Positions 3,738-28,811 of a DNA stretch of 64,000 bases are shown here, piece by piece. The DNA comes from Candidatus Hinthialibacter antarcticus (GTDB lineage: Bacteria; Hinthialibacterota; Hinthialibacteria; Hinthialibacterales; Hinthialibacteraceae), in contig JAVCCE010000072.1 in the NCBI GenBank assembly GCA_030765645.1, positions 62,001-126,000 on the forward strand. The letters run 5' to 3'. How positions within the stretch are numbered: position 1 is the first letter of the stretch; every line of letters starts with the position of its first letter. The notes beneath the pieces are model-generated. The model searched no databases. It was not told where the DNA came from and saw nothing but the letters and a program-made list of their open reading frames with translations. Both the position numbers and the translations under genes were made by a program.

Positions 3738-5561
3738 ATGAAAAAAATGTTTGTCGCAACTATGATTTTTAGTTTGTTCGCTATCCCTGTGTTCGCTCAA
3801 GGAATTGACATTGAAAGTTGGCCGCCGGATACCGACTTCTCACAAGAAGTCCACTATTGGAGTTCGGACGGTTTTTTGGAAGATGGAGTCCCTGGGGGGG
3901 CAGATGATTTTCTCAATTCGATAACCATTCTTAACGGCGGCGACCAGACGACGGAAGAAATTATTCTCGCCGATCAAATTGCGGTGAGGGCCACCAACAA
4001 CTTCATGAACGTCGCCGATGAGTTTTTCTTCAATTGGCCTGACGTATCTGAAGTTGACGTTCTCATTCAATATTTCGCCAATGCCGATTCACAGAATGAC
4101 AACATGGGTTTTCTTTTGGGTGTGCTTGGCAATCTTCATGGCGTCGGTGGATATACGCTCGAATCGTTAACAGACCAGTTTGAATGGCGCGTGTTCCGAA
4201 TCGACAACTCAGGCCAATGGCTTGGCAATGATCTCGCGGTTGACCCAATTCCTAGCGGTGGTCAATTCGGCGGCGTAAATGGTGGAACTGTCCGTATCGA
4301 ACGCGTAAACGGTTTGGCTGTCCGCGCGATCGCGATTGGCCCGGCTGGCGTGTTTGGCGCGACTGATACGATCAATCAAACCGCCACGGTTGACTTTGAT
4401 CCAGACTTGTTCCCAATTGCCGCTGAATGGGACCTCAATAATGGTGTTGTAGATGGAATCGATTTATATAAAGTCAATGACGGCGACCAAGAGACAATCG
4501 AGTCCGAAGATATTGGCCCCGCAGGCGACAAACGAAAAGCCATGCGCCCCGCGATGGAAGACGGAAGCGATGGGACGTTGGATAACTTCGTCAACTGGGA
4601 AATTTTAAACGAGCATTTTGGTCCAACTTCTCAACCAAGCACAAGGGTTAAAATTGTCGCGGAGTATTATGACGATCCCGCATTGACGGGCGTCGTGTTT
4701 GGCCCCGAAGCATATAGTTCTGCAGGCGGCGCTATTGAGTTTTTCCCTCTTGCAAATCGAACAATCATCGAAGGTACAGACAAATGGCGTGAGGTGGAAT
4801 GGTTTGTTACTGACGTGAAATTCAATGGCGTGAATGTTCCTACTCAGGGGGCGGCGCGGTTTATTTTCGACGGCCCTGTTTACATTAGCCGTTTGAGAAT
4901 GGGCGTCATCCGCGCATCAGGCTCCAACGAAGGCGTTGATCCGATTCCTGATTCATACCCCTTTGATCCAGACCCGTTTGAAATATTCGCAGAATTAGAC
5001 ATTGAAGGCGGGATTGTGAATGGTTTGGACTTTGGCGGCAACGGCGGCGACCAGGAATATATTACGGAAGAAGCCGGACCTGCTGGCGAAATTCGCTTGT
5101 CAATTCGCCCGTCGATGACGGATGGAACCGATCCATTTGACCGTTATATTAACTTCTCCATTTTAGATGAACATTTCGGCCCGAGTTCACAGCCAAACGC
5201 TGTGATCAAAATCGTCGTAGATTATTGGGACGATCCCGCTTTGATCGGTGAATCCTTCGGCCCTGAAGTGTATGTCTCAAATGTATATGGTACCAATGCG
5301 TTTACGTTCTTCCCATCTGAATTGCGTACAACTATTGAAGGTACAGATACTTGGCAAACCGCCGCTTTCCTGATCGAAGACATGAATTTCTCAGGCGTGA
5401 ACCAAGGGCCGCAAGCAGCCGCCCGTTTTTGGTTCTCAGATAACGGCGCAGTCCACATCAGCCGTATTCGTTATGCTGTCATTCGCCCGGTTGGCGTGAA
5501 TGCTGGCGTCGATCTGCTGGCAGAATTTGAGACGGATATTAGCGACTGGAACTTGTACTAA
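3738..5561 (+). CDS. Secreted two-repeat protein with C-terminal DWNLY tail
   Basis: 607 residues, not recognised as a known family. The ATG at 3738 is chosen for the GGAGG just upstream and because it begins a Sec signal peptide (MKKMF, hydrophobic core, then VFAQ). After an N-terminal domain of about 190 residues come two homologous repeats of about 180 residues each, roughly bases 4398-4940 and 4971-5510. Both contain GDQE, GPAG, [LI]-[NL]-[ED]-EHFGP, YY/YW-DDPAL and IEGTD-x-W blocks. The pattern suggests extracellular beta-rich modules. The last residues are DISDWNLY, resembling the end of the secreted protein at 27344. It is a single-gene transcript with a strong terminator. Function unknown; surface binding or a structural role is only a guess. 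Confidence 0.8.
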   Translation: MKKMFVATMIFSLFAIPVFAQGIDIESWPPDTDFSQEVHYWSSDGFLEDGVPGGADDFLNSITILNGGDQTTEEIILADQIAVRATNNFMNVADEFFFNWPDVSEVDVLIQYFANADSQNDNMGFLLGVLGNLHGVGGYTLESLTDQFEWRVFRIDNSGQWLGNDLAVDPIPSGGQFGGVNGGTVRIERVNGLAVRAIAIGPAGVFGATDTINQTATVDFDPDLFPIAAEWDLNNGVVDGIDLYKVNDGDQETIESEDIGPAGDKRKAMRPAMEDGSDGTLDNFVNWEILNEHFGPTSQPSTRVKIVAEYYDDPALTGVVFGPEAYSSAGGAIEFFPLANRTIIEGTDKWREVEWFVTDVKFNGVNVPTQGAARFIFDGPVYISRLRMGVIRASGSNEGVDPIPDSYPFDPDPFEIFAELDIEGGIVNGLDFGGNGGDQEYITEEAGPAGEIRLSIRPSMTDGTDPFDRYINFSILDEHFGPSSQPNAVIKIVVDYWDDPALIGESFGPEVYVSNVYGTNAFTFFPSELRTTIEGTDTWQTAAFLIEDMNFSGVNQGPQAAARFWFSDNGAVHISRIRYAVIRPVGVNAGVDLLAEFETDISDWNLY

Positions 5562-5582: not shown

Positions 5583-5616
5583 GGGCGCATGGTGCTAATG
5601 CCATGCGCCCTTTTTT
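5583..5616 (+). terminator. Rho-independent terminator after the secreted repeat protein
   Basis: GGGCGCATGG (5583-5592) pairs perfectly with CCATGCGCCC (5601-5610) around an 8-base loop, followed by TTTTTT. Confidence 0.92.
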
Positions 5617-27343: not shown

Positions 27344-28747
27344 ATGAAACGTATTTTTCTGGTAATACTCGGTACGATTGTTTGTGTATCGTTCGTAAAT
27401 GCACAAGATTATCCGATTACGAAAGCCTGGGAATTTTTGTGGACTGAGGAGAGTGAAGAATATCCTTGGTTACGCGCCGAACAAGGAACAAACTGGGAGC
27501 ATGATGGCTCAAATGAAATGGACTTTTTCAGTACGCTGATTCGGTATGATGCTGATCGTTTGATGTTGCTTTTAGTTGAAAATGGCGTCAATGAAGCAGA
27601 CCCTGCGCCAGAAGACATTGCAATAGCAGAGAAATTTCCTGATCGTTCGGTTCTCTGGATTAGTCCAGTCGATGGTTCTTTTATGGGAGTTGCTTTGAAA
27701 TTGGATTTTCTTCCTGCTGAGGATACAGAATATTATAAGCAAAAAGTGACCGGAACTCATCCCGATGGGCCTGAATCTGACCGTAGCTGGCAATTAACAG
27801 AGCAATGGCCGCATATTGCTGCTGATGACGATGGATTTTTGTATTTAGTAGACAAACATAAAATCCTTCGCTACACGCCAGATGGTGATACATTCACTGG
27901 ACCAGAAGTTGTTTTTACGTATCCAGAACAAGACCCTCCAATCTATTCAACCAACGCAGGCAACCTGCATTATCGCGCCTGGCGAATTCAATCTATCAAT
28001 GTGAAAGGCAGCGGCAATAACAAAGTAATGACGACCGCAGCCCGTTTTTGGATTGATGCTGGCGGTGTGATGTATTACACCAGCAATGACGGCGGCGCGA
28101 GTTGGACTATCCAGACGCACCGAGGACAAGAACAACGAGGCGGCGTCGGTACAGGCGGCGCAACCAGCGCTCCAGTTACATTCGGTGAAGAAGAATGGAT
28201 TTTCGCTAATGGTTTTCCTGGCAGCGATGATCGTTTGTATCGCTTTTTCCGTACGGCTGGCACGCAAGAGGATTTCTTCCAAGACATTCCTGATCTTTGG
28301 GATCCACAAATTGACCCTGCAGAAGATGTGGCCGAAATCGATAAATACATGAAGTGGAATTTAATTGATGCGGCTGCCGCAGATGGAGTGCCTTATGTTG
28401 CAGTCCTTTCATTGCCGAAGTGGCAAAGCCGTAACGATGGAGAATTTATTGATGCGACTGCATGGGTTGCGATTCATTCTGTTGCATTAGATCCCAATGG
28501 CGATGGTATTGAAGGCGATTTTTTATCTTCCTATCAGATTAACGTACATGAAATTGATGAACTTCAGGGCGTTGCTGGTGACGAAGACAACTGGGATGCT
28601 GCTTCATTTGCTGCAATCAACATGTACGTACCAGAAGGTTTCCCTGACGGCGCGGCGGAAATTCTATGGAGCGGCGGCACCTCAGGCTTTGGACGTTTGG
28701 TGGTTGGCGATGTAGATGTTTCGGTCAAAGACTGGTCGTTATTCTAA
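27344..28747 (+). CDS. Secreted protein with one Asp-box and a C-terminal DWSLF tail
   Basis: 467 residues, family not recognised. The Sec signal peptide is at about 1-20 (KRIFLVILGTIVCVSFVNAQ). The segment YYTSNDGGASWT near residues 245-255 matches the Asp-box (S-x-D-x-G-x-x-W) of beta-propellers such as sialidases. Strands like GFLYLVDKHKILRYTPDGD fit a propeller, but the catalytic residues of sialidases are not evident. The protein ends VSVKDWSLF, close to the end of the secreted protein at 3738. TAGGAG lies upstream. Likely extracellular or surface-bound; substrate unknown. Confidence 0.8.
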   Translation: MKRIFLVILGTIVCVSFVNAQDYPITKAWEFLWTEESEEYPWLRAEQGTNWEHDGSNEMDFFSTLIRYDADRLMLLLVENGVNEADPAPEDIAIAEKFPDRSVLWISPVDGSFMGVALKLDFLPAEDTEYYKQKVTGTHPDGPESDRSWQLTEQWPHIAADDDGFLYLVDKHKILRYTPDGDTFTGPEVVFTYPEQDPPIYSTNAGNLHYRAWRIQSINVKGSGNNKVMTTAARFWIDAGGVMYYTSNDGGASWTIQTHRGQEQRGGVGTGGATSAPVTFGEEEWIFANGFPGSDDRLYRFFRTAGTQEDFFQDIPDLWDPQIDPAEDVAEIDKYMKWNLIDAAAADGVPYVAVLSLPKWQSRNDGEFIDATAWVAIHSVALDPNGDGIEGDFLSSYQINVHEIDELQGVAGDEDNWDAASFAAINMYVPEGFPDGAAEILWSGGTSGFGRLVVGDVDVSVKDWSLF

Positions 28748-28780
28748 ATTAACAAGAACAAGACTTTCTGTTGGAAACTA

Positions 28781-28811
28781 AGAAGGCGTTCAATTGAACG
28801 CCTTCTTTTTT
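28781..28811 (+). terminator. Rho-independent terminator between convergent genes
   Basis: AGAAGGCGTTC (28781-28791) pairs perfectly with GAACGCCTTCT (28796-28806) around AATT, followed by a T-run. It serves the secreted protein gene and may also stop the convergent DUF3179 transcript. Confidence 0.9.

Follow-up and report, generated by a model that had tools for sequence, protein, structure and literature searches.

A nine-residue C-terminal tail on signal-peptide proteins of two bacterial phyla, a probable sorting tag

Two secreted proteins encoded in the window, the 64,000-nucleotide stretch of DNA analysed here, end in a common tail whose general form is [TSVA]-x-[VI]-x-[DEN]-W-x-[LIM]-[YF]-stop, nine residues in all. 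The tail is restricted to signal-peptide proteins with unrelated bodies, as for a generic C-terminal sorting tag, and runs through the class of the window (the SURF_12/OLB16 lineage, "Ca. Hinthialibacterota") and much of a second phylum, which we guess to be Sumerlaeota. Overall, we consider it probable that the tail is a post-Sec sorting tag, captured by a receptor that would export or anchor the cargo.

The shared ending and its link to signal peptides

The initial annotation had proposed that two secreted proteins of the window share a C-terminal tail, and this was borne out. Protein 1 (3738-5561, forward strand) ends in LLAEFETDISDWNLY-stop, with FETDISDWNLY as its last residues, and protein 2 (27344-28747, forward strand) in GDVDVSVKDWSLF-stop, with DVSVKDWSLF. 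Both carry a Sec-type signal peptide with predicted cleavage before Q, and the strong terminators described for both genes are present as 12-bp terminator-like hairpins. The features are as follows.

3738..5561, + strand: tagged secreted protein 1, 607 aa, ATG at 3738, without a Pfam or NCBIfam match
3738..3797, + strand: Sec-type signal peptide of protein 1, MKKMFVATMIFSLFAIPVFA followed by Q, from sequence reading and a positive heuristic signal-peptide detector
5532..5561, + strand: tag of protein 1, TDISDWNLY-stop, from sequence
5583..5610, + strand: intrinsic-terminator-like hairpin after protein 1, 12 bp stem with T tract
27344..28747, + strand: tagged secreted protein 2, 467 aa, predicted beta-rich, sialidase-like beta-propeller
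27344..27403, + strand: Sec-type signal peptide of protein 2, MKRIFLVILGTIVCVSFVNA followed by Q, from sequence and a positive heuristic signal-peptide detector
28718..28747, + strand: tag of protein 2, VSVKDWSLF-stop, lying beyond the last strand (residues 448-454) and with pLDDT <50
28780..28807, + strand: intrinsic-terminator-like hairpin after protein 2, 12 bp stem with T tract

A Pfam search with proteins 1 and 2 gave no match for either. Protein 1 also contains a region of ~200 aa that is tandemly duplicated (IAAEWDLNNGVVDGIDLY... / IFAELDIEGGIVNGLDFG...), likewise with no Pfam match.

Searching the whole genome, a 78-contig MAG, with GAYTGGNNNYTNTWYTRR returned 10 matches, nine of which end long, mostly unrelated and exported-looking reading frames; the wider pattern TGGNNNYTNTAYTRR added similar tails such as NVGQWALY, APVSNWALY, SVDAWALY and DVSEWNLY. 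The enrichment expected by the initial annotation, relative to shuffled tails and to non-secreted proteins, was then evaluated on ORFs called in an 859-kb sample of the genome (contigs C11, C15 and C63 plus the window) that was taken regardless of tags. Seventeen proteins end in W-x-[LFIM]-[YF]-stop, compared with 0.15 in shuffled tails and 0.19 predicted from internal frequency, and the strict form of the tail would occur ~0.01 times by chance. All 17 have a signal peptide, and none of the 371 proteins without one matches (p=3e-7). When Phe/Tyr variants and one trailing residue were allowed, 23 of 269 signal-peptide proteins were tagged versus 0 of 371 others (p=1.2e-9), such that only ~9% of signal-peptide proteins carry the tag; these counts use a simple home-made rule that over-calls signal peptides (42% of ORFs positive). 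Two further genome samples, one of them from the second phylum, contributed five tagged proteins, again all with signal peptides, bringing the three samples to 28 of 28. ORF calling was naive throughout, and weaker in GC-rich genomes.

Form of the tail and the proteins that carry it

A profile of 102 tails has T, V, S or A at −9 (97%), D, E or N at −5 (71%), L at −2 (93%) and Y (93%) or F (6%) at −1, with S, E or A frequent at −3. V/I at −7 and W at −4 were selected, and the search pattern contributes to the frequencies seen for V, W, L and Y. Position −9 was never used in selecting tails, and −5 entered only where a minority of loci had been fetched with a pattern fixing D there. The conservation of these two positions, which did not serve to choose the tails, is therefore independent evidence. 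The pattern D-[IV]-S-x(0-1)-[KD]-W-[NS]-L-[YF]-stop of the initial annotation thus captured a genuine shared tail in a form that required correction, to T/S/V/A at −9, V/I at −7, D/E/N at −5, W at −4, L at −2 and Y, less often F, at −1.

The motif is strongly tied to the end of the protein, as 20 of the 26 occurrences of [VI]xxWx[LIMV][YF] in the own-genome sample have at most one residue between them and the stop. Various codons, many of them synonymous, are used for V, L, Y and the stop, and the two phyla share one profile, which indicates selection on the protein rather than a DNA repeat. In some variants F or Y replaces W (INDYMLY, IRDFMLY), and a few tagged proteins carry one residue past Y/F (WSIYK, WSIYE, WSLFK). 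Altered or extended ends also occur in the sample as VSDWMLN (C11:16004-17752), VIEWSIYK (C63:49754-51463), VPAWSIYE (C15:21417-22202) and VAGWSLLR (C11:27635-28630). Each of these proteins has a signal peptide, so Y/F may not have to be followed immediately by a free carboxylate. Locus L191 (G012:C9) has two tagged paralogues side by side, with ORFs of 1533 and 1965 aa that end in LAVEDWEFY.

The bodies attached to the tail are diverse, with 72 tagged proteins spanning 39 Pfam families. These include LamG-like, CBM9, pentaxin, golvesin C-terminal, phosphodiester glycosidase, subtilase and FG-GAP domains, as well as polysaccharide deacetylase, rhodanese, metallophosphatase, CotH and multihaem cytochromes; from this domain content we infer a surface or extracellular location. 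In two cases solved structures delimit the domain relative to the tag. Solved homologues of a tagged rhodanese align to query residue 158 at most, with the tag at 164-172, and the solved-structure alignment of a tagged octahaem cytochrome ends at residue 487 of 507, short of the tag. Tags on a rhodanese and on a cytochrome c of the octahaem tetrathionate-reductase family (L125, G005:C2, and L124, G001:C43) suggest that these bacteria carry out sulfur or electron-transfer chemistry extracellularly.

Protein 2 provides a view of the tail within one family. Its homologues are solely members of its own family within the class, of which its own genome encodes three copies in all, and all 12 full-length members are tagged, with V461 and W464 invariant behind a linker of variable length. 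An AlphaFold model built on the family alignment (pTM 0.84) places the last strand at residues 448-454 and gives residues 460-467 a pLDDT <50. The best solved matches of protein 2 are sialidase-like beta-propellers. In a monomer model, low confidence at the tail is consistent with an exposed peptide and is silent on the role of that peptide.

Distribution across genomes and candidate machinery

Within the window's class, RTNNNNNNNTGGNNNYTNTAYTRR matches in all 14 available genomes, with 299 matches versus 59 for the reversed pattern. The window's own family shows the greatest excess, and a few distant members of the class, e.g. G013 and G009, show little or none. One genome of the window's family (G003) is the public MAG SURF_12, with agreeing match coordinates (QZKN01000141.1). 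The OLB16/SURF_12 lineage has been placed outside Omnitrophota (PMC10066038), and OLB16 is listed as Ca. Hinthialibacterota (PMC11382960). In the second phylum, reached via G025, a similar pattern gave 189 matches versus 55 for the control in 40 genomes; families f17 and f268-f271 are tag-rich, and the tag is absent from f260, f262 and f266. Across ~370 genomes belonging to other phyla there was no clear excess, and the 8 versus 4 matches of one genome (G111) were not repeated in its family-mate G372.

The search for a reader, receptor or processing enzyme returned no candidate, and no genome neighbourhood is dedicated to the tag; the neighbours that stood out near clustered tag genes were confined to cargo paralogues, regulators and prepilins. 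The prepilins belong to a GspG-like family (GFTLIELLIVVAIIGILAAIAVPNFLNAQxRAKxA) whose best NCBIfam matches, GspG and PilA, are both below cut-off. Of 28 tag genes, 7 have such a gene no more than 0.8 kb away versus 2.2 for random signal-peptide genes (p=0.004), an association noticed post hoc. Among separate 3-kb tag loci, 10 of 80 hold a prepilin versus ~3.3 expected by our own arithmetic. In both phyla, several prepilins directly follow a tag gene and share its strand (L134, L141, L154, L271, L274, L276 and L189).

GspG-like prepilins are numerous in their own right, with 77 matches in the own genome, up to at least 105 in relatives and 20-56 in the second phylum, irrespective of the tag. 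A large number are isolated genes outside secretion operons, in the own genome (e.g. L212:4795-5385, L228 and L229) as well as in G000-G012 and the G025 phylum. GspD-type secretin matches number 13 in the own genome (including C15:44504-46789 and C63:169126-171570, and on C59, C64, C66, C8 and others) and up to 26 in G390, with some reading frames of 900-3500 aa. Neither gene family discriminates: prepilins are equally abundant in tag-free families, which leaves only their local adjacency, and GspD matches occur in 27 of 27 genomes, multiplied with or without the tag. Because both are just as abundant in tag-free families, the link to type II secretion is non-specific. The adjacency of tag and prepilin genes is thus a weak lead rather than a mechanism, hinting at a type II-secretion-like exit.

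Known C-terminal systems and possible roles of the tail

The initial annotation likened the tail to T9SS-like and PEP-CTERM-like tags and knew no named tag with such a pattern. The latter statement agrees with our searches, in which no NCBIfam or Pfam model covers the tail: none was found in Pfam (the 25 most frequent families of the 72 tagged proteins) or in NCBIfam (10 proteins), T9SS sorting domains included. None of the open-access papers listed by a literature search describes the tag, though sources beyond open access may do so, and a Sumerlaeota genome paper does not mention C-terminal sorting. The likeness itself holds as an analogy and fails as membership, since SprA was not found, exosortase does not track the tag and the tail lacks a transmembrane helix.

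Sortase, exosortase, rhombosortase and myxosortase CTERM tags are tripartite, comprising a motif, a transmembrane helix and a basic end (PMC11980579). The last 45 residues of 135 tails contain no transmembrane segment (maximum 17-residue hydropathy 1.52; 0 of 135 above 1.6), so the tail is not a tripartite CTERM tag. Like PEP-CTERM with exosortase, and PGF-CTERM with archaeosortase, it is a short C-terminal signature on dozens of unrelated Sec-exported proteins of one lineage; it differs from PEP-CTERM in lacking the helix in all 135 tails. Exosortase was rejected as a reader, with PF09721 present in 4 of 21 tagged genomes, absent from the own genome and present in two tag-free genomes. The genomes G395 and G397, from family f266 of the second phylum, are tag-free yet carry exosortase, and possibly one C-terminal sorting system replaces the other.

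MYXO-CTERM with myxosortase and GlyGly-CTERM with rhombosortase offer a second likeness, as phylum-wide C-terminal tags on surface proteins. These tags depend on type II secretion (PMC11980579), of which there is a hint for the new tag as well. They are tripartite (PMC11980579), whereas the new tag has nine residues and usually nothing past Y/F. MYXO-CTERM specifically, with its invariant Cys motif, transmembrane helix and Arg-rich end, was excluded, as the tail consensus has no Cys and no transmembrane segment lies in the last 45 residues.

In type IX secretion, too, cargo exported by Sec carries a C-terminal signal, which is read once the protein has folded in the periplasm. Its signals are whole domains, in contrast to the nine residues found here. 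SprA (TIGR04189) exceeded its cut-off in none of 28 genomes, with weak partial matches only, a result that comes without a positive control as the 14 control genomes also gave none. The tail was also considered as the truncated start of a FlgD/T9SS domain (PxxFxLxQNYPNPFN), and no YPNP or PNPF motif occurs in the sampled proteins. The aromatic terminal residue recalls the BAM outer-membrane beta-signal, which requires alternating hydrophobics at −3, −5, −7 (−9) and an aromatic at −1. The tag has mainly S/A/E at −3 and mainly D/E/N at −5, and the cargo bodies are not barrels.

A post-Sec sorting tag remains the probable explanation. Cargo would pass the inner membrane by Sec and then fold in the periplasm, after which a dedicated receptor, located at the outer membrane or close to it, would bind the unfolded tail [TSVA]x[VI]x[DEN]Wx[LIM][YF]-COOH. 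Binding would likely be as an extended peptide, with pockets accommodating V(−7), W(−4), L(−2) and Y(−1). The receptor would then move the cargo out of the periplasm or keep it on the cell surface, and the adjoining GspG-like prepilin genes, a weak lead, raise a type II secretion-like system as a possible exit route. We are more tentative, leaning slightly against, about a bolder version in which the tail is a domain-free minimal secretion code at the C-terminus. It would be decoded by an outer-membrane machine for export or anchoring that two candidate phyla share and that may act through lineage-expanded GspG-like pseudopilins, some encoded beside the cargo.

Ordinary export of all tagged proteins, followed by docking of their tails onto a single shared protein of the surface or matrix in the manner of dockerins on cohesins, is an unlikely alternative. 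It would suit the abundance of adhesive and carbohydrate-binding modules in the cargo (LamG, CBM9, pentaxin, golvesin C-terminal domain) and a short, exposed tail at the end of a variable linker. However, soluble-type enzymes and electron carriers (rhodanese, octahaem cytochrome, NAGPA) are tagged as well, and a docking peptide need not be C-terminal, yet the tag nearly always is. We regard as more improbable still a quality-control or processing degron, through which a periplasmic PDZ protease of the DegS/DegP/Prc type would trim or degrade tagged proteins. The PDZ domains of these proteases bind C-terminal hydrophobic or aromatic residues, matching the Y or F that ends 99% of exact tails, a figure partly set by the search pattern. 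But reading of a free carboxylate by PDZ should not tolerate the extra residue of WSIYK, WSIYE and WSLFK, conservation of V at −7 and T/S/V/A at −9 extends beyond the usual PDZ ligand, and HtrA/Prc proteases are present in most bacteria while the tag is limited to two phyla.

Very little speaks for a tail that has no signalling role and is simply the last beta strand of each domain, as the initial annotation had itself weighed, or a relic of duplication of a tagged ancestor. Some tagged proteins are indeed paralogous, such as the three protein 2 family copies in the own genome. The folds are nevertheless unrelated, and the tail lies beyond the aligned solved homologues, is disordered in the model and is conserved, unlike the variable linker before it, all of which contradicts a domain-specific strand. 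Resemblance of the two window tails by chance deserves almost no credence given 17 loose matches versus 0.15-0.19 expected and the excess across the class and the second phylum.

C-terminal tags have repeatedly led to whole export systems, namely exosortase, rhombosortase, myxosortase and type IX secretion, and the architecture described here is unlike any of theirs, with nine residues, no membrane helix and no domain. Tag-free families within the second phylum allow a comparison of gene content between tag-present and tag-absent genomes that could reveal the reader of VxDWxLY. Since the tag marks exported proteins of phyla known mainly from metagenomes, it affords an immediate listing of part of their secretome.
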